In this document: one piece after another, positions 1 to 16,475 of the stretch
How the letters are laid out: every line of letters begins with the position of its first letter
Numbering within the stretch: the stretch's first letter is position 1
Assembly (NCBI GenBank): GCA_029553475.1
Contig: JAKPKV010000143.1
Coordinates: 1 to 64,000 of the forward strand
DNA: 64,000 nt
Origin: Armatimonadota bacterium
Lineage (GTDB): Bacteria; Armatimonadota; Hebobacteria; CAIYQO01
Direction: 5' to 3'
The notes under the pieces: model-generated
Told to the model about the DNA's origin: nothing
Seen by the model: only the letters and a program-made list of their open reading frames with translations
The model's database searches: none
Position numbers and translations under genes: made by a program

Positions 1-1
1 T

Positions 2-1286
<1,285 letters not shown>

Positions 1287-1323
1287 ACACCGACTGTCAC
1301 TCTAGCGGATGCGGTCACACGAA

Positions 1324-1368
1324 CCCGTGAGTAATCGAAATGTGTATCCCTATTCGGCTACTCACGGG
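1324..1368. terminator. Hairpin between convergent genes, likely bidirectional terminator
   Basis: A perfect 10-bp inverted repeat, CCCGTGAGTA (1324-1333) and TACTCACGGG (1359-1368), lies between the methyltransferase stop and the end of the convergent ATPase gene. There is no clear U-tract. A second imperfect dyad, GTGACTA with TAGTGAC, follows near 1370-1388. A terminator for both genes is the simplest reading. Confidence 0.5.
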
Positions 1369-1423
1369 GGTGACTACTATATAGTGACTTTATACTTGTA
1401 TTCCGACCAGCGCTATTGGAAGG

Positions 1424-4084
1424 TCACGGTAATATCGCACCCGCTTGGCGGCGTTCAATGTCCAGCACCCACCCCCGCAGTGTATCAATCTCCTGCTTCA
1501 CGGCGGTGGGCAGGGGTGGTGGTGAGCCTGCAGGTAGCGGTGCGGTATGCAATAAGGCCGAGCAGCGTCCAAAGCCTTCACGCATGGCGGTACAATCTGC
1601 CGACGATAACACGGTTACTTTAATCAGTCCGGCTGTTTTTACTTTATAGGCATAACGTGTAAACACGGGAGACAGCGCTTTCTCTACGGCGCGTTCCCAC
1701 AGTTCCCGAAGCTCTTCTGCGATTCCCTTTACTTCTCGCAACCACTTTGCAGTATCCCCATACGTGTAGGCATTTGTGACATTCGTCAGGTGCCGGTCTA
1801 GCGAGTCGAGCGCGTCAAGAACGGGACGGACATTCATAGGAATTTCGGCATGGCAATACCCACACCGGTTTTCACCACGCCCGATGCACTGGTAGTGCGG
1901 GTCAATGCCGCATTGCCGGGCTTCGTCGGAAAGTTGGGTGAGGAATACAATGTCATGCGTAAACACAATTACCTGCCGCATTTGGGCTTCCTGCACGAGG
2001 CGCTTCGCGACGGCTTGACGGTATTCATGGTCGAGAGAAGACACAGGGTCGTCAAAGACAATCCCGGAATGGTCGTCCGCCGTTGCTAGTTCAGAGAGAA
2101 ACGCCGCCAGCGCAATACAGCGGTGCTCTCCCTCACTGAAAATTGCTTTCACGTTTGTGTCTTTTTGCCCGGCAAGGCCAATGCGGAATTTAGGCACCCC
2201 ATATTGGCTTCCAGTTTCCTGCATTTCAGCTTGTAGTCGTTCCACTCCGAAACTCAGCACTTCCCCCGCGAAACGGTCTTTGAGCGCTGCGGTAACGAGG
2301 CCGCGAGCGAGTGCTTTGCTTTTATTAGTAATGCCCCGCGTTTCGGTGTCCGTGAGCGCATTCGTCAGTATCGCCAGCTTTTTCCTGCGTGTAATATCAG
2401 CCCGCACGTCGTCAAGCACGTGTCCCAACCACACCCTGTCGTCAAGCTCCTGTAATTCCTTGGTGAGTATCTGTCGCGTTTCGTCCTGCATCGCCTGCTG
2501 TAAATCGGAAATGCGTGTATCAAGGCCCGTAACCAGCGCCTCCAATCCTGCAATGGGTGGTGGTGGCACCGGGGGCAAGCTCGGCCATTCACTTGTGCGT
2601 TTCGCACCGAGCAACAACCGTTGTCGCCACCGGGTGAGCGTCAGAAAGCGGCGGAGTTCAGATGCAACCGCCGGGCATTCCAAGTCACCATCAATCAATC
2701 CGAACGCGTTGAGCCGGTCGGACTGGGTCAGTTGGAGCGCCCGCACGGGAGACAGCGCGGTTTCACACGCGCGTGCCGCTTCTTTGGCGCGGACTTGGGC
2801 ATTGGCTTGAACGAACGCATGGAAGCGCGACAACCGCTGTGCCGCTTCTGATGTTAATGCTTGCTGGCAGAGGACACAGTATGCGCCGTCACCCGTCACG
2901 GGGAAGTCTTGCGCGGGATAGGCGTCCTGCATGGAATACGCGCGGGCTGACTCCCACAAGGCACGCCATGTTTCAGACCCAACATGGGGGAGCGGTTCGT
3001 CACGGAATAGCTCCTCCGCCGCAACACGGGCGGCTTCGGCTTGTGTTTCCGCGTTTGCCAGTAGCAGTTTGATATTCTCAGCCACGATATCGGAAGTGCC
3101 TACGGAAAATTCACGCACGGTGGCAAGCACACGGAGGAGGTGAGCTTTCCGTTGCCGCAGTTGCTCGATTTGTTTTGCCAAGTCGTGTGACAGGTCAGCC
3201 CGCAACGTCTCCTGACGCCGCTGTTCGTCCGGCGTTAAGGTGGCTAACGTCTGGACACCCGTCATGTCAGTGGTAGCAGAGAGTGCAGTGAGGAGCTTGC
3301 TGACCTTCGTGCCAGCCTGACACTGCGGTTTGACTAATGCTGCTGGAATCGCTGCTTGTAATTGCTGCTGTTCCTGTTTCAAGCGTTTTTGCAGTTCAAT
3401 ACAGGCGTCAGCGAGTTGCTCCAACAAATCGAGTGCAGCCGGAGTGTATGCCACGTCGTTGGCTTTTTCGACGTGGATTATGGCGCAAGCGGAGTCAAAC
3501 ACGCTAATGGCGGTCAGTTCGTCGGCGCAGGATGTCCCATCAACCCAATGTGCCGGAGCGGGAACAGCAATACCATTTACTGTGTATTCAATCGTCGCCG
3601 TCGCGCCACTCGTGGCTTGTGGGTCATAAACGTTGGGCAGGATAGCCTCTCCAGCCGCGCGTGCACGGCAGGCTTTTTTCAGAATGCGCGTATAGCCGGA
3701 CTTCCCTGACCCGTTGCCACCATAGACAATCGTCAATCCTGTTTCCCTGAACGTGAGTGACTGCCCGTCCGCGAGAGCGTTGACATGGCACACGTCCTTA
3801 ATGCGCTTGAGGGCAACGACTTTCCCAGTGGTATCGGCTTTCACGTGGTGCGTGGTGAGAGGTTGTGGTTTGGGTGTAGACGGTGACGCCCCCGCTCCTT
3901 CGTGTGCCGCCCGGCACATTGCCAATAATTCGAGGTAATCCTTCTCGGTCAGGCTTCCGTGCAGGCACAGGCGTCGTAAGGCGTCTCGCTGCCATGCGGG
4001 GAGTTGAGCAGACCAGCCCACGATTTCCTGCATGGCCGCGCTAGATGGTGAGCTTGACGACGGGGGAGTCACCGAAACATTCAT
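1424..4084 (-). CDS. SMC/Rad50-like AAA ATPase with zinc hook, RloC/PrrC-like defence protein
   Basis: An 886-residue AAA_13-type ATPase. Walker A is GGNGSGKSG (about 122-130), a CVLCQQA zinc-hook motif sits near residue 410 between coiled-coil-like arms, Walker B with D-loop is GIVFDDPVSSLDHE (about 674-687), and the H-loop is VIVFTHD (about 705). The last 100 residues carry LRELWERAVE and a later LLHTAP, giving R793, E797 and H846. This is the type of residue set (Arg-x3-Glu then His) described for the anticodon nucleases PrrC and RloC, though the spacing to His is longer than I remember. An extra pair, CGYC (741-744), may bind zinc. ATG at 4084 has AGGAGG upstream. It converges on the methyltransferase gene, which suggests a restriction or abortive-infection module. 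Confidence is high for the ATPase and low for nuclease function. Confidence 0.8.
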   Translation of the reverse strand: MNVSVTPPSSSSPSSAAMQEIVGWSAQLPAWQRDALRRLCLHGSLTEKDYLELLAMCRAAHEGAGASPSTPKPQPLTTHHVKADTTGKVVALKRIKDVCHVNALADGQSLTFRETGLTIVYGGNGSGKSGYTRILKKACRARAAGEAILPNVYDPQATSGATATIEYTVNGIAVPAPAHWVDGTSCADELTAISVFDSACAIIHVEKANDVAYTPAALDLLEQLADACIELQKRLKQEQQQLQAAIPAALVKPQCQAGTKVSKLLTALSATTDMTGVQTLATLTPDEQRRQETLRADLSHDLAKQIEQLRQRKAHLLRVLATVREFSVGTSDIVAENIKLLLANAETQAEAARVAAEELFRDEPLPHVGSETWRALWESARAYSMQDAYPAQDFPVTGDGAYCVLCQQALTSEAAQRLSRFHAFVQANAQVRAKEAARACETALSPVRALQLTQSDRLNAFGLIDGDLECPAVASELRRFLTLTRWRQRLLLGAKRTSEWPSLPPVPPPPIAGLEALVTGLDTRISDLQQAMQDETRQILTKELQELDDRVWLGHVLDDVRADITRRKKLAILTNALTDTETRGITNKSKALARGLVTAALKDRFAGEVLSFGVERLQAEMQETGSQYGVPKFRIGLAGQKDTNVKAIFSEGEHRCIALAAFLSELATADDHSGIVFDDPVSSLDHEYRQAVAKRLVQEAQMRQVIVFTHDIVFLTQLSDEARQCGIDPHYQCIGRGENRCGYCHAEIPMNVRPVLDALDSLDRHLTNVTNAYTYGDTAKWLREVKGIAEELRELWERAVEKALSPVFTRYAYKVKTAGLIKVTVLSSADCTAMREGFGRCSALLHTAPLPAGSPPPLPTAVKQEIDTLRGWVLDIERRQAGAILP

Positions 4085-4828
4085 GCCACAAGCCTCCTGT
4101 ATGGCTTTATATAGAATGATTCGCGTTGCATATGGTGAATGCCTGCTAACAAAGGCTATTTAGGCGATTATTCTACCGCTATCCCTTTGCCTTCCCATGT
4201 TTACCCCGGTGTAGTTTGTCCCGTGCTGTCCAGCGTTGCGCTGGCTCGGTCATAGTGCGCCGTCATTTTCGCGGCCACCCCCGTTTCCCCCGTCCCCGCA
4301 GTTCACGGCGTGTTCACGGCAAACCTTGGCACTGAAAAATTTTGGAAGGGTGGCCTGTTTCCTAGAAAAAAGAAGGGTACGCCTTCTTTGGCGAAGGTCA
4401 CCAGCGTTACGCCGACCACGCGGGGAGGTGTCGCCGGCTGGGGGGCGGGGCGTTGCTTAGCTTACAAGGAGTGACGGAGCGGGCGAAATCGCTCAAAGCA
4501 GCCAGTTTGTAGTGATTATCACATAGATTTCCGCTGGGCAACTCGGTTTTTACATATTTTGCGCACCTGACGCGTTCCGCCACTGAAAAAATGTCCAACC
4601 GACCGGTCGCAGGGACGGCTTGAGGTTTCCGACATAGGGGGGGTAGGCATGGGGAACCGCACCGTGGGTACGAATGCCCGCAATGGTAGACAGGAGTTCG
4701 GGTGTTCGTTCCCAGTCGGGGAGACAAGCAGGGGATATATACAGAGATATATATCGCATTGCCTTCACTTGGGGTAGAACAGAACTCGACAACTCCTCGC
4801 TGGACAGCGCTCTTTTCGGAAGGTAAGG
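4085..4828. other. Non-coding stretch upstream of the AAA ATPase
   Basis: About 740 bases without a convincing gene; the open frames here lack ribosome sites and coding-like composition. Just upstream of the ATPase (minus strand) lie AGGAGG and an AT-rich segment reading TATATAAAGCC, a plausible promoter and leader for that gene. Around 4730-4755 there is an AT-rich dyad with two ATATAT runs, similar to those at 8030 and 10490. Nothing else is recognisable. Confidence 0.4.
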
Positions 4829-4873
4829 CCGTCATAGCGCATACCAACACGCAGGTATGTCTATGACGGCCCA
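4829..4873 (-). terminator. Strong hairpin after the primase-helicase operon
   Basis: A long inverted repeat pairs GGCCGTCATAG plus ATACC with GGTAT plus TATGACGGCC, interrupted by a small internal bulge and an eight-base loop. It lies 16 bases beyond the stop codon of the primase-helicase C-terminal part at 4889, so it most likely ends the leftward operon. Confidence 0.6.
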
Positions 4874-4888
4874 TGATCTCCAGCGCTG

Positions 4889-5605
4889 TTACGCTTGCGG
4901 GTCGTCTGTTTGTTTCGATGACTCGTCTTCGTGCTTCACCGGTTCTGCTGTTTGCTTCGGCGGCACGGTACACTCAATCGTTCTGATAGCCCACACGACC
5001 GGGTGGCCGTCCTTGACACGCACAACCCCCAATGCGCTCTCGCCATACGGCCGGTCTTCACGTTTCAGGAGCGCCTGCCCGATTCGCCGCACGGCGCTCC
5101 CGCGTTCCACCATTTCGTTCAGGTCGGCCAACTCGTCGGGAATGACCGAGCCAAAGCCCTTGAGCTTGTCGGCGATATCGGCAGCGCGGAAGCTTTGCGG
5201 GAAGAACCTTTGCACGGTCGTCAAGAACGCTTCCCATTGCACGGATTCCGTATCACTCCGCCGCCGCCGCGCCTCCTGATTGCCCAAGAACGCCGGGATA
5301 CCGACGAAATCCAGGAGTCCACCCATAGTGTGCGCGAATGTTTCATACGAGCGGAACTCCGGTATCGGTGACGTGGACGACGGACAGTTTGCCTTCCGAT
5401 ACGCCTGCCAAAGTGTCAGTTTCGCCCATACCAACTCCGCCCGGTGCTCCATGACCCACGCAATCAACGGAAAATGCGTAAAATTCTCCAGGTGATTCAT
5501 GCCGCGCGCCCGCTGGCAAATCCGTATGCCCATGGTGCGCCGGAAGATATCCCCGCCGATATCCACGTTATTGCCGGTGCCAATCCACACCGTGCGATTC
5601 GGCAC
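4889..5605 (-). CDS. Primase-helicase, C-terminal part, in a shifted frame
   Basis: This frame continues the protein encoded at 5568-7955. It opens with PNRTVWIGTGNNVDIGGDIF, which matches the sensor-1 region (TGNN) and the arginine-finger region of plasmid/phage primase-helicases. Reading the frame upstream to about 5640 gives ARELGVLRDISVPNRT, exactly what should follow the LLTARRWR end of the other frame. The 238 residues end in a charged tail. The ATG at 5605 has no ribosome site, so independent translation is unlikely. The two halves would form one protein of about 1020 residues if two bases were restored in the CG run at 5631-5642. It is either a real frameshift, a slippage site or a sequencing error. 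Confidence 0.75.
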   Translation of the reverse strand: MPNRTVWIGTGNNVDIGGDIFRRTMGIRICQRARGMNHLENFTHFPLIAWVMEHRAELVWAKLTLWQAYRKANCPSSTSPIPEFRSYETFAHTMGGLLDFVGIPAFLGNQEARRRRSDTESVQWEAFLTTVQRFFPQSFRAADIADKLKGFGSVIPDELADLNEMVERGSAVRRIGQALLKREDRPYGESALGVVRVKDGHPVVWAIRTIECTVPPKQTAEPVKHEDESSKQTDDPQA

Positions 5606-7955
5606 GGAAATGTCCCGTAATACTCCTAACTCGCGCGCGCCAGCGGCGGGCGGTGAGCAACGCCGCCAAGTGTTGCGATTTCAGGACGCCGTCAATATTG
5701 TCATACAGACTAATCGGCACCCCGCTTTTCAGGGTGGAGGATATCTGCTTCCGCCACTCTTCGTCCGTCGCCGGAGTCGTGGTCACGTCAGGCTCTTGGC
5801 CCAATTCCTCCGCAACAAGCACCCGCGCCAGTAGCCCTTTCCCACTATCCGGCGCGTTCGCTTCGATAAGAATAAACGGAAACGCCTCGTCTACATACGG
5901 CAAGAGCATGGGCGCGAACCGCGCGGCAATAAAGTTCGCGTAATCGGCCTTGGACGCGAAAATGAAGTCACAGACCGGGTCGTGTAACAGTTTGACCGCG
6001 CGTTCAAGCTCCTTTGTCCCCGGATTCTCCGATATCGGTGGCAGCACAAACCCCGGCACAGGACGGTAGATACGCCGTGTCTGCGCGTCGTATCCCGGCT
6101 CCGCCATAATGCTCCCATCCTTGCGGATAAACGGACTAATTGAGATACCTTGAATGGGCTGGAGCGGCCAATTCCACCGTCCCTGAATATGGTCAGAGAG
6201 TTTCTTCGGGCATTCTACGTGTTTGACGTGACCGTCCGTAACTTCCACCATATCGCAAATTTCTTCCAACCGCGTTTGCAGGTGTATGGCGTCCATTTCC
6301 TGCAGCCGGGCATTCCCCTCCGGGTCTACCACCAGTTCCACCAGCGCCAAGTCATGCTGGAACAGCGTCGGCCCCCACTCTTTTGAGGTCATGCCCGCAA
6401 TGAGGTGGTGCACCGCTGTATATGCAATCTCACGGAGCGGGATATTCTCATTAACCACCACGCGGGGTTTCGTGGTCGTGAGCGTTTCTTCGGCTTGTTT
6501 CCGCTGCTTCACCAGTAAGTGCTTCCGCACTTTCCGCACCTTACTGTCCAAATCACGCTTGTGCAAGGCGTCAATGGCCTTGTCTAAATCATGGAGTATG
6601 TCCTCATACTCACCCACCGGCAACTTGGCGAGGTCGTCGGCAATCTCATAGACCGCCGCCGCTTTGCCTTTCGCTTTCGCTGCGTCAGCAGCGGTGTAAA
6701 TACGCGCCAACTCGTCTTCGCTCACCCAGACCTCATCCGGGTCACCCCAGTCCGAAGCGCCGTAGCCGTCGTCGCGCAACGCTTTCGCCGCCGCGCTGTA
6801 GTCGCCCCCGTGCTTCAACAGGGCGTAGACGGCAAAGAGCTTGTACGCCTGCCCCTCCTCAAAGGGGTCAGCATTACTGGAGAAGACGTAAAACAGGCCG
6901 AGTGCCGTGTTGTATGTGGCGGAGCAACTCCCCTCGGTCTTTCCCGGACGCCGCCAATACTCCGTGCCGTCGGGCCGGGTAGACAGATACTGCCAGCCGT
7001 GCGTCTCCAGCAGCGCGCGGTGGTCGCCGCGTGCGCTGTAGTCGTCACCGGGCCGGTTCCCCCAGCCGGGAGAAGGCGGGAGCGGCGGTTCCGGTTTCGG
7101 GTCGGGCTGCACTTCGGTGAGGCCGCGCATGATATCAAGCAGCGCGTCCACTTCGTCGGCGCTGAATACGGGAATGTCACCGAGACTCCCCGACACCACC
7201 CGGTACGGACAGTCCGGCGCGGGCGGCATACCCGGCAGGCGCGACGGAGCCACGGCATACACCCCGGTGCCTTGTACCTCAATGAGCGTGCGCTTCTTTT
7301 GTTCCGCTTCGTCCCAATAGCGGGCTAACACCATTTTTGAGTACGGGTAGTTCCCACACCGGAAATACCGGTGGTCACCCTTGCGCGTTTTCACGTGCGG
7401 CATACGCGCGGCCAAGTGGCCCACCCCCTGCTCGGCGCACCGGCGCAGGAAGGCGTCGTGAATGTCCGCCCGGTCGAAGTCGGCAATGAGCAGGTTGCCG
7501 GAGACGGCTCCCGCGTAAATGCCGATACCGTAGCCCTGCTGGTCGGGTTCCCCGCCGAACCAGTCACAGAGTTCGTCCACGGTCGCCCGGCGTGTGGTGC
7601 GCACCGGTTCCAACGCCTCACTGCTTAACTTGGGGGTTTTATCGGTCAGCGTAACCCGGAACGCCGATAGGCCATATTGCTCCACGTAAGTGACGGCGGT
7701 AGACAGCGTGTAATTATCGTCGCCGTCGTCCTCGTCTACGCCGTCCGCCATTGCCACCCCGGTTCCCGTGGGGTACAATGAGGCCGGAGCCTGTTCATGG
7801 GAATGGGCGTCCCCAAGAGCCTCGCCGTGCTGGTCGTCAAACTCGCCACTGCGGGGCTTTACAGTCGTCGCCACTGCGTCCGCGTCTGTGTCGGCTACCG
7901 TGTCCTCCCACGCGTCCACCGTGAAGCGGTCGTCGCGTTCGTCAATGTCTACCAT
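5568..7955 (-). CDS. Prim-Pol primase fused to replication helicase, N-terminal part, frameshifted near its end
   Basis: The replication protein of the integrated element. An acidic leader of about 85 residues precedes an archaeo-eukaryotic primase (Prim-Pol) domain with the metal-binding LLIADFD (D159, D161), KGDHRYFR and the LIEVQGTGVYAVAPS motif. After a linker comes a helicase-type ATPase with a variant P-loop EANAPDSGKG (near residue 690) and Walker B-like ISLYDNID. The frame then runs into 20 unrelated residues after LLTARRWR, because of an apparent 2-base loss in a CGCGCGCG run (5631-5642). The rest of the domain is encoded at 4889-5605. ATG at 7955 has GAGG eight bases upstream. It is last in a leftward operon with three small genes. 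Such fused proteins drive replication of integrative plasmids and phage satellites. Confidence 0.82.
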   Translation of the reverse strand: MVDIDERDDRFTVDAWEDTVADTDADAVATTVKPRSGEFDDQHGEALGDAHSHEQAPASLYPTGTGVAMADGVDEDDGDDNYTLSTAVTYVEQYGLSAFRVTLTDKTPKLSSEALEPVRTTRRATVDELCDWFGGEPDQQGYGIGIYAGAVSGNLLIADFDRADIHDAFLRRCAEQGVGHLAARMPHVKTRKGDHRYFRCGNYPYSKMVLARYWDEAEQKKRTLIEVQGTGVYAVAPSRLPGMPPAPDCPYRVVSGSLGDIPVFSADEVDALLDIMRGLTEVQPDPKPEPPLPPSPGWGNRPGDDYSARGDHRALLETHGWQYLSTRPDGTEYWRRPGKTEGSCSATYNTALGLFYVFSSNADPFEEGQAYKLFAVYALLKHGGDYSAAAKALRDDGYGASDWGDPDEVWVSEDELARIYTAADAAKAKGKAAAVYEIADDLAKLPVGEYEDILHDLDKAIDALHKRDLDSKVRKVRKHLLVKQRKQAEETLTTTKPRVVVNENIPLREIAYTAVHHLIAGMTSKEWGPTLFQHDLALVELVVDPEGNARLQEMDAIHLQTRLEEICDMVEVTDGHVKHVECPKKLSDHIQGRWNWPLQPIQGISISPFIRKDGSIMAEPGYDAQTRRIYRPVPGFVLPPISENPGTKELERAVKLLHDPVCDFIFASKADYANFIAARFAPMLLPYVDEAFPFILIEANAPDSGKGLLARVLVAEELGQEPDVTTTPATDEEWRKQISSTLKSGVPISLYDNIDGVLKSQHLAALLTARRWRARVRSITGHFRAESHGVDWHRQ

Positions 7956-8141
7956 AACATAAACCTCAATAATTCCTGCATGTATTCAGCGGTGAGTGTC
8001 ACCGCCCCACCGGTTTGCGCGGTGGGCTTATATATCTCGTGTTAGCATGGTGGTGGGGGAACCACCGCGCCCGCGCTACCTGTAGCCGGTTAATACCATA
8101 CCTTTGCTCCTTTCGATTCCGCGTGGAACTTGTGTATGTAC
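7956..8141. other. Short spacer with small hairpins inside the element operon
   Basis: This 186-base gap separates the 129-residue protein gene from the primase gene. It contains CCCCACCGG...GCGGTGGG-type dyads around 8008-8030 and a TTATATAT run. It could hold an internal promoter or processing site; no gene is visible. Confidence 0.3.
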
Positions 8142-8531
8142 CTACCACCCCATACCCTCGTCCTCCCACGCGGGGGTTTCGTCATAGATTTGCGTGCCCG
8201 CATAGACGGCTTCGTAGCGCTGGCGCGGCCACCAATAGTAGAGCCGTCCGCTGCCGTCCCGCGTTATGCGCCCGTGGTCAATCATGTCCGCCAACTCGGT
8301 AGCCATGCACTCATCCGTGTCTTCGAGCAACAGTTCAAGGGTGTCATACCCCTCCCGCTGCAACCGGACGGCTTGTGCCACCGAGACGTACCACGGATTC
8401 CATTGCAGTCCCCGGACATGACTCGCTCCGCCCCACGAGAGCGTGCGCAGCGCCCTGCCTTCCTTCGGATAGAGTGTGTAGGTATTACTCGGCGGGGGGC
8501 CGTCGTCGTCGTCCGACCAGTTATAGCGCAT
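8142..8531 (-). CDS. Hypothetical acidic protein of the integrated element
   Basis: A 129-residue protein that I do not recognise. It opens with an acidic patch (SDDDDGPP), has several tryptophans (WNPWYVS, YYWWPRQ) and a central amphipathic helix that may be helical by composition (REGYDTLELLLEDTDECMATELADMI). ATG at 8531 is preceded by AGGAAGGAG at good spacing, which makes translation convincing. It lies upstream of the primase gene and downstream of two other small genes, so an accessory role in replication or its control is plausible from position alone. Confidence 0.6.
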   Translation of the reverse strand: MRYNWSDDDDGPPPSNTYTLYPKEGRALRTLSWGGASHVRGLQWNPWYVSVAQAVRLQREGYDTLELLLEDTDECMATELADMIDHGRITRDGSGRLYYWWPRQRYEAVYAGTQIYDETPAWEDEGMGW

Positions 8532-8621
8532 GGCGTGCTCCTTCCTGCCGTTCCCACGTCGAGAGCGGCCAATGTGAATTGCTCATGCAGTGTCCTCCTT
8601 TCTCATGTCTGTCGTGCATGC

Positions 8622-8936
8622 TTACTCTTCCGTAACGGCGTCACCGTCTGTCTGCACAGGGTCACTTTGCGGAGCGACCGGCACTGTTTCAACACGCACG
8701 ACACGCGGACGGCGTGCCTCACGCATGTGCTGGTTGTCTTGCTCCGATTCGTCGAAGTCCCACGCTTCGGAGCATTCGCCCGCTTCTTCAAGGGCTTCCG
8801 CGAACGCCCGTTGAATTTCCGGGTCAGGCTGCCGCATTTTGGCGAGAGCTTCTGCGCACGCCCGCTGCACGCTCCGGTCGGGTCGCTGGGCTTTACGGAA
8901 AATCGCTTCCACCTCTCGCGTTCGGTCAGGATACAT
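8622..8936 (-). CDS. Hypothetical helical protein of the integrated element
   Basis: A 104-residue protein with no recognised domain. I start it at the ATG at 8936 (MYPDRTREVEAIF) because AAAAGGAG stands seven bases before it; a longer frame exists to 8978 but has no ribosome site. It contains two similar helical segments, DRSVQRACAEALAKM and DPEIQRAFAEALEEA, an internal duplication, followed by an acidic, proline-rich tail. The gene overlaps the end of its upstream neighbour by 11 bases, so both are translated from one message. Confidence 0.6.
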   Translation of the reverse strand: MYPDRTREVEAIFRKAQRPDRSVQRACAEALAKMRQPDPEIQRAFAEALEEAGECSEAWDFDESEQDNQHMREARRPRVVRVETVPVAPQSDPVQTDGDAVTEE

Positions 8937-9162
8937 ACGATAACTCCTTTTCTGTCGGTTTCTCGGTGCAGCACACAAACGTCTGCGTGTTCGGCAGTAA
9001 GCCGCCGCTAGGGTAGGGCAGTATACGGCTCGCTTGCATGGCGTCTAAACCGCAGATTAGCTCCCGCAGCGTGTCCGCACTGAGAACAGCGCGCACGTTA
9101 TCAATCGAACTAATGCCTCGCTGCTTCACTCTCCGCTGTGCTTGCTCGTGTTCCTGTGACAT
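8926..9162 (-). CDS. Hypothetical small protein, first gene of the replication operon
   Basis: A 78-residue protein that I do not recognise. The ATG at 9162 (MSQEHEQAQRRVKQ) is chosen over the one at 9198 because GGAGG lies six bases before it. The N-terminal half is charged and helical and could bind nucleic acid. The C-terminal half is PYPSGGLLPNTQTFVCC followed by a polar tail. It is the promoter-proximal gene of the leftward operon and divergent from the zinc-finger gene at 9332, a typical place for a small regulator, but no helix-turn-helix is evident. Confidence 0.55.
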   Translation of the reverse strand: MSQEHEQAQRRVKQRGISSIDNVRAVLSADTLRELICGLDAMQASRILPYPSGGLLPNTQTFVCCTEKPTEKELSYVS

Positions 9163-9331
9163 AAAAACCTCCATATGTGTCGTTCGTCGCTTCCGCACAT
9201 GCTCATGCCAACACGAAGCGAACCATGTCGGGGCGACAGAAAGAAAGATACCGCAGACGGAATTGCCTTCGTCGGACTAAAAGGGTATGATTTTGGTGCG
9301 ACAAACATGGATTTGCGTCGCGGGAGGTCAC
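9163..9331. promoter_or_regulatory. Divergent control region of the element
   Basis: This 169-base space separates two divergently transcribed units. It contains dyads that could be operators: CGCTTC...GAAGCG (21-base spacer) and TGTCG-GGG-CGACA. No confident -35/-10 pair could be placed. Function is inferred from position. Confidence 0.35.
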
Positions 9332-10399
9332 ATGCAGGATTATAAGCTCATGCACGCGGAGGTCGAAGTCGCGGAGCGGGGGTATCGGTGTGTAAATGCG
9401 CAGCTAGACAATTCTGTCTTATCGCACGTGAGTGTCGAAGGGCTTGCTCAAACGGCAAAGAAGCGTCGGCCTCACTGGAGTGACGAACAGGCGAAAGCCG
9501 ACGCTCAAGCGCGGTATAATGCGATACGCCGTGAGGTGGAAACACGGGTACTCACAACGATTGATTTCCCGAAATCCCTCCGCCAGCGAACGAAGGAGTT
9601 ATACCAGTACCGGTGGCGCGCACTTGAGCCGTCCATCCCAATCAAACGGAAAAACCCCATGCAGGAACCATACTTATTTAAGGTCTTTGCCCGCATGGTT
9701 CACGCAGAGGACTTTGAGGATGCGTGTATCCATTTTGCCAACGAATGGGGATTTCTTGGTAAACCGCGTGAGGCCAGTGAACTTGACGGTGAACATATCG
9801 TGCGGCCTATTGAGGGCGAAGCGGTGACACTGTGGCGAGACGAAGCTGCGGTTATAGCGCAGGTGGTCGAACTGCTACGCCTTGCCAAGCAAGAGAACGA
9901 GCCGTGGCAACTGAAAAGCTGGTTTCGGTGGCAAGATGGTCGCGTATATTTCACAAAAGGGGCGAAGAAGCAATACGTTGCGCACTATGTGCCGGAGGCG
10001 AGTGTCACGGAACCGCTGATTGAGCTTCGCGACGCGCGCGCGGCGGCACAGCGACACGTCCATAACCTCGTGAATGCGCATGTGAAGGGACAGACCGCCG
10101 CGCGGTGTGAATGGAATCCCACGGAGGGGGGATACGAGACGCATGTCACCTTTACGTCATTATTGGGGGCGCTGTGGCTCCAGTGCCTGAACGAACTGAC
10201 CGGCGAGGTGGATTGGGCGCAGTGCCCGCAATGCGGGACGTGGTTCCAACGCAGTGGAGAGAATGGACGGCGCACGAATGCCAAACTCTGTGGGAATCCC
10301 AAGTGCAAACAGCAGCGCTATTATGTGGGCAAGGGGAAAGAGACACGGAAGCGGCGGTATGCCGCCGAGAAAGCCATGAAGACAGCGCAGGCCGCGTGA
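9332..10399 (+). CDS. Zinc-finger protein with CxxC...CxxxxC C-terminus, possible DNA-binding regulator
   Basis: A 355-residue protein. The N-terminal 250 residues are not recognised. The C-terminus has a four-cysteine finger, CPQCGTWFQR followed by KLCGNPKCKQQRYY, then a very basic tail (GKGKETRKRRYAAEKAMK). The finger is organised like that of CGNR-type regulators (CGN...C plus a basic helix), so DNA binding is a reasonable guess. I start at the ATG at 9332 because GGGAGG lies four bases upstream; the frame is open to 9287. It is transcribed away from the replication operon and lies between it and the integrase, so it may control excision or replication. Confidence 0.6.
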   Translation: MQDYKLMHAEVEVAERGYRCVNAQLDNSVLSHVSVEGLAQTAKKRRPHWSDEQAKADAQARYNAIRREVETRVLTTIDFPKSLRQRTKELYQYRWRALEPSIPIKRKNPMQEPYLFKVFARMVHAEDFEDACIHFANEWGFLGKPREASELDGEHIVRPIEGEAVTLWRDEAAVIAQVVELLRLAKQENEPWQLKSWFRWQDGRVYFTKGAKKQYVAHYVPEASVTEPLIELRDARAAAQRHVHNLVNAHVKGQTAARCEWNPTEGGYETHVTFTSLLGALWLQCLNELTGEVDWAQCPQCGTWFQRSGENGRRTNAKLCGNPKCKQQRYYVGKGKETRKRRYAAEKAMKTAQAA

Positions 10400-10443
10400 C
10401 GGTGGAGGCACCACCTGTTCACACGCGGGGGAATGGCGAGTCG

Positions 10444-10544
10444 AGTTTAGGGAGTTTCTATTCCCGTACCTCTACCTACCATAGGTATATATGTCGGTAT
10501 ATATCGTTAGTGGTAAGGTAGAGAGAAGTGAAACTCCCCAAACT
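10444..10544. repeat. Long imperfect hairpin between zinc-finger and integrase genes
   Basis: The arms AGTTTAGGGAGTTTC (10444-10458) and GAAACTCCCCAAACT (10530-10544) pair with one mismatch, and inside them CTACCT-CCA pairs with TGG-AGGTAG. The loop contains two direct copies of GTATATAT about 14 bases apart. The hairpin sits between convergent genes, so it may be a bidirectional terminator. The AT-rich tip would also suit an origin or transfer site of the element. Confidence 0.5.
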
Positions 10545-10590
10545 CCCGTGTCAACCCGCCGAGTGTTGACCGTCCCCCGCGTGGCGACAC

Positions 10591-11556
10591 TCATTTATAG
10601 CGTTTTCGTCCGCTTGTCGGTTGAAGCTGAAGCATGTCTCCCGGACTGAACCGCCGGTGCTTCTCGACAATATCCGTCTGTGCTAACTCGGCGTACCGGC
10701 GGGTCATTTCCAAGCTGGTGTGCCCAAGGAGCTTTTGCAGGGAAAATACGTCTCCACCGTTCCGCAGGTAGCTGACCGCAAAGTACCGCCGGAAGTTATG
10801 GGGGGAGCACACGCTAATGTCCACCCCTGTCGCCGTGCCCCGGTCTTTCAGCATTTCCAGTATCCGCAGCCGGGTTAATGGCACACCGTAGCAGCTGACA
10901 AATAGGCTGTTGACCTTCGGTATCTCACCCCGGTGCGCGGTGTAGGCCGTGAGCGCGCGGTAGGCGGCGTTTCCGAAGGGCACCCGGCGTTCTTTGGCCC
11001 CTTTACCCAACACGAGTAACGTCCGGTCACGCCAATCAATCGCGTCGAGCGTCAACCCGCAGAGTTCCGACACCCGCAACCCGCAGTCCGCGAGAATGAG
11101 GATTATGGCGCTATCGCGCTTCCCGGTGAAATCCGTGCCGCACGCCGCCAGCAACGCCCGCACTTGGTCGGTGGTGAACGTCGTAATGACTTTCTTGCGT
11201 TGCCGCAGCGGTTCCACGTGCTCCATGGGATTGGTATCAATCAGCCCTTCCGCCGTGAGATACCGGAAGAAGCAGCGGAGCGTAATGAAGCTATGGTGGG
11301 CCGTCAGAGAGGAAATTCGTGTGGTTTCGTCGGCAAGAAAGTCGCGAATGACCGCTGGCGTCACGTCGGCAATGCCGAGTGTCGGGGCGTGCGCCAACAA
11401 AAACCGGGCAAACGCCTCAAACCGGAACCGATAGAACTCTTTGGTATGGTGGGAGAGATTCCGGGCGTCACACCGGCGCATGAAACTCTGAATCGCCGCT
11501 TGCACGTCCTGTTGAGGGGGTAAGGGTTGCCGAAAATCTACGGCAGGTATACGCAT
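10591..11556 (-). CDS. Tyrosine recombinase/integrase of the element
   Basis: A XerC/D-like phage integrase of 321 residues. It has an N-terminal SAM-like core-binding domain (about 15-105) and a C-terminal catalytic domain with Arg161 (GLRVSEL), Lys185 (GKGAKERRVPF), His253 and Arg256 (SPHNFRRYF), His279 (LLGHTSLEM) and the nucleophile Tyr288 (RRYAEL), so all catalytic residues are present. I start at ATG 11556 with GAGGT upstream rather than at the longest frame (11634). It lies beside a tRNA-Ser half-gene and a cluster of repeated AATCGTG motifs, as expected for an integrase next to its own attachment site. The longer start would run into that site. Confidence 0.92.
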   Translation of the reverse strand: MRIPAVDFRQPLPPQQDVQAAIQSFMRRCDARNLSHHTKEFYRFRFEAFARFLLAHAPTLGIADVTPAVIRDFLADETTRISSLTAHHSFITLRCFFRYLTAEGLIDTNPMEHVEPLRQRKKVITTFTTDQVRALLAACGTDFTGKRDSAIILILADCGLRVSELCGLTLDAIDWRDRTLLVLGKGAKERRVPFGNAAYRALTAYTAHRGEIPKVNSLFVSCYGVPLTRLRILEMLKDRGTATGVDISVCSPHNFRRYFAVSYLRNGGDVFSLQKLLGHTSLEMTRRYAELAQTDIVEKHRRFSPGDMLQLQPTSGRKRYK

Positions 11557-11595
11557 TACTGACCTCGCTTTCAGAAAGAAATGCGCGCGAAAGCG

Positions 11596-11760
11596 AATCG
11601 TGCCAGCAATAGACGAAGGTGACAAATCGTGCAAGCAAGTTGGGACTTTTTAGTTCCTTGCACGATTTTTCCGGGGCAACGGGAGAGGAATTTGAGGTCA
11701 AAGCATGGGGAGAAATCGGGGAAAACCGCGTAATGTAATTAAGCCACGATTTCCAGTCGT
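11596..11760. other. Probable attachment region with repeated integrase sites (attR-like)
   Basis: The heptamer AATCGTG or its complement CACGATT occurs at 11596-11602, 11625-11631, 11661-11667 and 11745-11751. The middle two form a perfect 12-bp inverted repeat, AAATCGTGCAAG (11624-11635) with CTTGCACGATTT (11657-11668). The last copy is the 3' strand of the anticodon stem of the interrupted tRNA-Ser. Four copies in 165 bases beside the integrase gene suggest core- and arm-type binding sites. The crossover is probably in or just after the anticodon arm. Confidence 0.6.
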
Positions 11761-11790
11761 GCTCCTTCAACCAGACTCGGACACCTCTCC
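11745..11790 (-). tRNA. tRNA-Ser(GGA) 5' half, interrupted after the anticodon arm
   Basis: On the minus strand the sequence begins GGAGAGGTGTCCGAG and has a normal acceptor 5' strand (GGAGAGG), a D-arm (TCC...GGA) and a perfect anticodon arm, CACGA-CTGGAAA-TCGTG, with anticodon GGA. This matches bacterial tRNA-Ser(GGA) closely. Directly after the anticodon stem the sequence becomes AT-rich element DNA: no long variable arm and no T-arm (GGTTCGAATCC) can be built. A CCTCTCC that could pair with the acceptor strand occurs about 56 bases further on, but a serine tRNA needs only about 32 there, and the bases between do not form a T-arm. The 3' half is presumably at the other end of the element, outside the window. 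Confidence 0.75.
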
Positions 11791-11883
11791 GCGGCACGCG
11801 GCGGGTGCCGTGTGCGGGTGACAGTGTAGCAAACCACCCCGCCGCGTGTCAATGTCGCGAGGCGGGCCGCGCGCGGGGGCGGC

Positions 11884-12237
11884 TTATGTCTTCGGCCTGG
11901 GCGGGGCGCCTGTGCGGTCGTGCAGCAGGTGTTTCAGCGCCGCCAGGTCGCCGCGCAGCAGCAGGCGCGGGCCGGCGTAGCGCATCACCGCTTTGATGCG
12001 GTCGCGTTCGGTGGGGCGGTAGCAGTGAATCGGGCACTGGCGGCAGGTGGGTTTCTCCGCGCCGTACGGGCAGCGCTCCAGCCGGGCGCGCACGTAATCA
12101 CACAGCGCTGCGCACGCGTCGCAGAGCGTCCCCTCCGCCGTGCCGTGCTCGCCTTCGCAGGCCAGGCGGATCATCCGCTCCACCAATGCCAGCTCGTCAG
12201 AGAAGTGCGCGAGATCGTTTAACTGTTGTTTTGCCAT
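11884..12237 (-). CDS. YgbA-like protein (nitrous oxide-stimulated promoter family)
   Basis: A 117-residue cysteine-rich protein matching the YgbA family (PF11756). The signature RCPYGAEKPTCRQCPIHCY, followed by MRYAGPRLLL, is the family core and contains a tight cluster of conserved cysteines that could bind a metal or cluster. In enterobacteria the family is linked to nitrosative stress; the exact reaction is not established to my knowledge. It is the first gene on the chromosomal side of the element junction. A near-consensus promoter lies so close upstream that the message is probably leaderless, and no ribosome site is visible before ATG 12237. Confidence 0.85.
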   Translation of the reverse strand: MAKQQLNDLAHFSDELALVERMIRLACEGEHGTAEGTLCDACAALCDYVRARLERCPYGAEKPTCRQCPIHCYRPTERDRIKAVMRYAGPRLLLRGDLAALKHLLHDRTGAPPRPKT

Positions 12238-16273: not shown

Positions 16274-16289
16274 ATGCGCCTGACAATCG

Positions 16290-16475
16290 CATAGCTGCCA
16301 GACGGACAGACTTTGGGAAGCCGGTGCGAATCCGGCGCTGCCCCGCAACTGTAACCGCTGACGAACGCCACACCAGGCCACTGCCCACCGAAGCTTTAGC
16401 GAAGGTGGGTGGGAAGGCGTGGCCAGTAGGAAGACGCGGAAGCCAGGAGACCGGTCCGGCTCGGAGTTCGACACC
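16290..16475 (+). ncRNA. Cobalamin (B12) riboswitch
   Basis: The conserved core is present in order: GGGAAGCCGGTGCGAATCC (16316 on), GCTGCCCCGCAACTGTAA (16337-16354), a variable stem, GGGAAGG (16411-16417), and the B12 box AGCCAGGAGACC (16441-16452) followed by CGGTCCGGCTCGG. This is an adenosyl- or aquocobalamin-sensing element that normally represses downstream genes when B12 is plentiful. The variable stem CCCACC-GAAGCTTTAGCGAA-GGTGGG (16384-16410) carries an 18-base hairpin tip that also occurs at 47379-47396. Downstream is the pseudopilin gene rather than a known B12 synthesis or transport gene. Confidence 0.93.

Follow-up and report, generated by a model that had tools for sequence, protein, structure and literature searches.

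The window analysed here is a stretch of 64,000 nucleotides (nt) that begins at the first base of contig C40 (JAKPKV010000143.1), in a draft metagenome-assembled genome (MAG) of an Armatimonadota bacterium (GCA_029553475.1; 5.27 Mb in 194 contigs). Towards its left end an integrated element interrupts a gene for tRNA-Ser(GGA). Read on the minus strand from 11790 to 11745, the chromosome supplies GGAGAGGTGTCCGAGTCTGGTTGAAGGAGCACGACTGGAAATCGTG: the 5' strand of the acceptor stem, the D arm, a perfect anticodon stem of 5 bp and a loop with the anticodon GGA. The final base of the anticodon stem is the end of this 5' half, and DNA of lower guanine and cytosine content with an intact tyrosine integrase gene starts next to it. 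The element covers window positions 1-11744 at 56.8% guanine and cytosine, against 68% for the remaining window. Its integrase-side end is visible; its left part is missing, since the contig starts inside the element.

Was this tRNA gene once whole? The 5' half is one D-loop base apart from the intact tRNA-Ser(GGA) genes of a same-genus genome (G001:C495) and a same-family genome (G002:C301). The former contig, 3088 bp long, represents the empty site and carries a CarboxypepD-type gene, a YgbA_NO gene, the intact tRNA-Ser(GGA) and a repeat-protein gene; up to the tRNA, this order is that of the chromosomal side of the window. Nucleotide identity to this site is 84-87% up to position 11745 and ends there (BLAST; 12255 to 11745 at 87%), and the element boundary falls within a tRNA gene that is uninterrupted in the relative. 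A preliminary description of this DNA, made from the letters alone, had placed the break at the anticodon arm of tRNA-Ser(GGA); the intact syntenic gene and the exact end of the match bear this out. Exact copies of a 28-nt piece of the 5' half number 61 in one-per-species genomes. Of these, 55 lie inside called tRNAs, and the other six run into a tRNA 3' part and stop at a contig end; none of the 61 is visibly broken within a contig. On these sequence counts the resemblance to tRNA-Ser(GGA) is not due to chance.

As had been proposed, this end does not restore the gene. ARAGORN calls no tRNA in the window and Rfam covariance models find none at 11600-11850 even at E<=10; no tRNA model makes the element bases downstream part of a tRNA. 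An element of the usual kind supplies the back half of a tRNA gene and leaves the gene's promoter in place. Here, the junction that keeps the native promoter is without the complete tRNA that such a 3'-restoring island requires. In place of the 3' half stand 42 nt of element sequence, followed by the motif TTTGACCTCAAA, one direct and two inverted copies of AATCGTG and the integrase gene. The heptamer CCTCTCC at 11688-11682 (minus strand) is complementary to the acceptor strand; it was weighed as a pairing partner for that strand but dropped, because it has no T arm in front of it and fits no tRNA model.

With the anticodon-stem strand itself (11745-11751, minus strand), AATCGTG is present in four copies. 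The 8-mer AATCGTGC, expected about 2.5 times per 64 kb, has three matches, all inside 72 bp and confined to the three element copies. The preliminary description had spoken of an octamer core; its four copies stand, as does their place in the attachment region, while the unit common to all four is a 7-mer. Elsewhere in the genome, the AATCGTGCAAG repeats have one more match, with a mismatch, in contig C33. Given that related elements share this layout, we assign the repeats to the attachment region; they most likely serve the integrase as binding sites, their sequence fitting the target stem. The copies at 11625 and 11661 lie in an inverted repeat (18 nt, 89%; window 11621-11671) that is predicted to form a hairpin in the leader of the integrase gene, a possible attenuator or integrase site pair. 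Coordinates are collected in the table.

Table. Features of the integrated element and the adjoining chromosome, in window coordinates.
Position	Strand	Feature	Basis
321..1286	+	DNA methyltransferase, N6/N4, type II-like, adjoining the PDC-S06 gene	Pfam 2e-51, PADLOC 3e-145
1424..4084	-	Candidate anti-phage ATPase (PADLOC PDC-S06, AAA_13)	PADLOC 8e-190, Pfam
4889..7955	-	Primase/polymerase-like gene in two frames (5568-7955, 4889-5605)	PHROG 19930 and 10537 match both pieces
9287..10399	+	Element gene without a family match	Homologue in the G001:C177 element at 42% identity
10591..11556	-	Tyrosine integrase, 321 amino acids from the likely start ATG at 11556; reading frame opens at 11634	Pfam PF00589 3e-37; PHROG integrase
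11596..11602	+	AATCGTG, inverted	
11625..11631	+	AATCGTG, inverted; 18-nt inverted repeat with the 11661-11667 copy (arms 11621-11638 / 11654-11671)	
11661..11667	-	AATCGTG in the orientation of the tRNA stem strand; probable integrase core-type site	Own-target repeats in relatives
11691..11702	-	TTTGACCTCAAA motif; a similar one follows the tRNA in several related elements	Upstream regions compared by eye
11703..11744	-	42 nt of element sequence where the tRNA 3' half would be; a 3'-half remnant at most	Weak alignment
11745..11790	-	tRNA-Ser(GGA) 5' half, acceptor 5' strand to anticodon-stem end	Sequence; intact genes in G001/G002; no tRNA called
11823..11852	-	Promoter-like site of the native tRNA (TTGACA-18-TACACT), in the present arrangement directed at the integrase gene	10/12 consensus; conserved at the G001 intact site
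11884..12237	-	YgbA_NO gene, chromosomal neighbour	Syntenic with the intact site

Where, then, is the rest of the tRNA? We searched 291 genomes of the phylum, most of those compared being draft MAGs. The closest integrases form a set of 16, that of the window and 15 others at 47-54% identity, in 10 genomes; the catalytic residues R161, K185, H253, R256, H279 and Y288 are invariant in an alignment of 10 sequences. Nearly all lie directly downstream of a tRNA and in the same orientation, the targets being Ser(CGA), Ser(GGA), Leu(CAG, GAG, UAA), Arg(GCG), Pro(GGG, UGG), Asn, a CAU tRNA and Glu(CUC). Exceptions are a second copy without an adjoining tRNA (G032:C28) and one cut by a contig end (G010:C28). 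Between tRNA and integrase gene lie repeats, usually of the target's anticodon-stem sequence. In 9 of 12 elements tested they fit the arm of their own target by a clear margin over the mean for the arms of the other targets; those at Glu, the CAU tRNA and Pro(GGG) do not, and in the CAU tRNA element they resemble the T arm by eye. The genome studied here itself holds a second element of the clade (integrase 48% identical) beside an intact tRNA-Pro(GGG) (G000:C13:12454-13654); its far end was not found on that contig.

Both ends are known in five related elements, four of the clade and one more distant, and in this small sample all five have a complete tRNA at the end away from the integrase. 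The integrase-side copy is broken in two of them. In the Glu element G114:C49 the tRNA is broken at the integrase and complete 8 kb away; a 58-bp direct repeat starts 15 nt ahead of the tRNA and finishes where the anticodon stem ends, the same end point as in the window's element. In the Pro element G018:C7 the integrase-side tRNA breaks off after the T stem, a complete one lies 11 kb away and the repeat measures 69 bp; contig C32 gives the chromosomal side, which includes a promoter-like site. Complete tRNAs at both ends are found in the Leu element G018:C9 (92-bp repeat), the Asn element G153:C188 (81-bp repeat, two changes in the distal copy) and the distant Val element G087:C1 (39% identity), which lies on the 3.29-Mb contig of a single-contig genome. 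At the four distal ends within the clade, a promoter match of 10-11/12 with 17-bp spacing stands 146-174 nt upstream of the tRNA. The Glu element also shows, behind its broken tRNA (G114:C49, L170, 254-283), CCCTCTGCCAATTGAGCTACCGGGGAA, of which the other strand reads like the 5' half of an Asn-type tRNA; its repeats match an Asn-type stem rather than Glu, and these Asn-like traces may record a change of target.

We consider it probable that the element rebuilds tRNA-Ser(GGA) at its far end by means of a promoter and 5' half that it carries, and that the promoters of the tRNA and the integrase gene are thereby exchanged. The tyrosine integrase would recombine at the anticodon arm of tRNA-Ser(GGA), with an attachment site made of the element's own promoter and tRNA 5' half and little or no 3' half. 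Integration would strand the native promoter and 5' half beside the integrase gene, the arrangement observed here. The far junction would link the promoter and 5' half brought by the element with the host's 3' half to give a complete tRNA, as seen in the relatives; since those with known far ends have a whole tRNA there, it probably lies just beyond the contig. The native tRNA promoter would now point into the integrase gene, whereas that of the element would point into the integrase gene in the excised circle and into the tRNA once integrated. The earlier contrast with tRNA-restoring elements is too simple: members of the clade seem to restore the gene at the end away from the integrase.

Several points weigh against this reading. 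The distal junction is not in the assembly, and neither a second 5' half nor a 3' half of Ser(GGA) was found there, whether preceded by AATCGTG, as the preliminary description had envisaged, or not. The promoter matches come from sequence only, and in single cases shuffled sequences do as well in 2 to 20 of 300 trials. Other close relatives, such as G007:C70 at Ser(GGA) and G001:C177 at Arg, are complete at the integrase end, and the broken state is seen in only two resolved relatives, which are sisters in the integrase tree. As the tree places the window's element elsewhere, this state may have more than one origin. The tRNA-Ser(GGA) of G007:C70 (L115) is intact and carries a tandem duplication of its T arm and acceptor 3' part (CGCGGGTTCGAATCCCGCCCCCTCCG twice). 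The only extra exact match to the missing 3' half, at C180:1862, was rejected, being of Ser(CGA) type with a different anticodon stem. That locus (G000:C180:1832-1886, L161) holds a Ser(CGA)-type 3' half (CATGACTCGAAATCATG stem) without a 5' half, adjoins an integrase-like open reading frame and resembles the attachment site of another element, one of the 3'-restoring type.

Could the cell simply have lost the gene? The insertion might have destroyed tRNA-Ser(GGA), its 3' half lying unused at the far end or deleted, with tRNA-Ser(UGA) reading UCC instead. We found no intact tRNA-Ser(GGA) in this assembly, and its serine tRNAs are Ser(CGA), Ser(GCU) and Ser(UGA), the last being the alternative UCC reader that had been suggested. 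In addition, the right-hand neighbour gene of the same-genus empty site has no match at orthologue-like identity in this genome, so that this flank may be missing or deleted; contigs C5 and C35 were rejected as the other flank, their match being paralogue-like (70-71%) and their neighbourhood different. Yet the absence of Ser(GGA) is weak evidence, because the gaps in the assembly's tRNA list extend to Asn, Ile(GAU), Ala(UGC) and two Leu tRNAs. Outright loss would moreover be costly, given that no CmoB was found above the curated cut-off and that UCC use is normal (17 of the 96 serine codons counted in a small sample of the chromosome); a missing GGA reader is probably costly, though an unmodified U34 could compensate. 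All five resolved relatives keep a complete tRNA. Destruction of the gene is unlikely, though it deserves to be taken seriously. Of the two outcomes first offered for this locus, a working copy at the other end is favoured by the relatives, and reliance on another serine tRNA is the less likely.

An improbable alternative is tRNA-dependent integration, as in some actinobacteriophages, where junctions are not rebuilt and a separate tRNA of the same isotype on the element complements the loss. That system (PMC10865867) is the nearest alternative for a junction left unreconstructed: its hallmark is such a junction beside a short shared core, and there, as here, the integrase splits a tRNA that is not rebuilt next to the core. 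Those phages, however, carry a separate complete tRNA; in the resolved relatives of our element it stands at the far junction, bounded by a direct repeat of 58-92 bp, and is not internal to the element. ARAGORN finds no separate tRNA inside the visible 11.7 kb of the element, though the unseen part could hold one.

Alternatively, the tRNA may once have been rebuilt at this end with the element's own 3' half, which has since decayed to the 42 nt. These are of roughly the right length, their TTTCTCC can pair with GGAGAGG (two G-U pairs), and the integrase-side tRNA is complete in several relatives. Their alignment to intact 3' halves is weak; in global mode, shuffling gives p values of 0.02 to 0.2. 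Decay would also have left a nearly unmutated 5' half next to an unrecognisable 3' part, with an abrupt boundary at the tRNA position where that of G114:C49 lies, and we regard it as quite improbable. Such a loss would be compatible with rebuilding at the far end, provided that the attachment site first held a whole tRNA and had shed the 3' half by the time the element integrated. A wrong joining of element and tRNA in the assembly, conceivable in a draft MAG whose contig starts inside the element, is hardly credible: the break falls exactly at the anticodon stem, the repeats match that stem, and the layout recurs in other genomes, one of them the single-contig genome with its 3.29-Mb contig.

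What else does the element carry? Its primase/polymerase-like gene has a homologue 67% identical in G001:C177, and its two frames overlap near 5570-5605, a frameshift that is either real or a sequencing error. No structural phage genes were found by PHROG among the proteins tested from the visible, left-incomplete element. A single-sequence scan of genome and viral collections returned no homologues of the integrase; by alignment, its identity to proteins of viral contigs is about 41% or less, and the half-tRNA pattern was not found in viral contigs. Outside the element, a cobalamin riboswitch lies at window 16287-16473 on the plus strand (Rfam RF00174, 100.6 bits).

Islands with a 5' fragment are a known kind but rare, as Islander lists a 5' tDNA fragment in 159 of 3919 islands (PMC4383910). 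Like our element they bear a 5' fragment of the target tRNA at one end, their other end being a complete tRNA; here the fragment end alone is seen, and some copies in the clade are whole at both ends. In archaeal elements of the pTN3 type, rebuilt tRNAs are expressed from the integrase promoter, an arrangement described as uncommon in bacteria (PMC8371274). The present case, likened to them for its proposed arrangement, concerns a XerC/D-like bacterial tyrosine integrase of Armatimonadota with stem-matched repeats beside its gene. For ICEKp1 at tRNA-Asn, the host tRNA promoter drives the integrase gene in the integrated state and a far-end promoter does so in the circle (PMC13023037). There the far-end promoter is described as that of the integrase gene, whereas here it would express the rebuilt tRNA as well.

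More tentatively, and with doubt prevailing, these Armatimonadota elements might be a clade whose attachment sites hold a promoter and a whole or front-half tRNA, which has retargeted itself to many tRNAs and whose integration swaps the promoters of host tRNA and integrase gene; copies whole at both ends would then show how 3'- and 5'-restoring forms interconvert by loss of either half. One integrase clade with both-end-whole and front-half arrangements offers a concrete series for how the rare 5'-restoring type could have originated. On the tentative reading of a retargeting clade, the host tRNA would depend on the element's promoter, and the integrase gene would be driven by that of the host tRNA. 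Were the promoter swap real, expression of a host tRNA would be controlled by a mobile element that carries a candidate defence gene and a methyltransferase.
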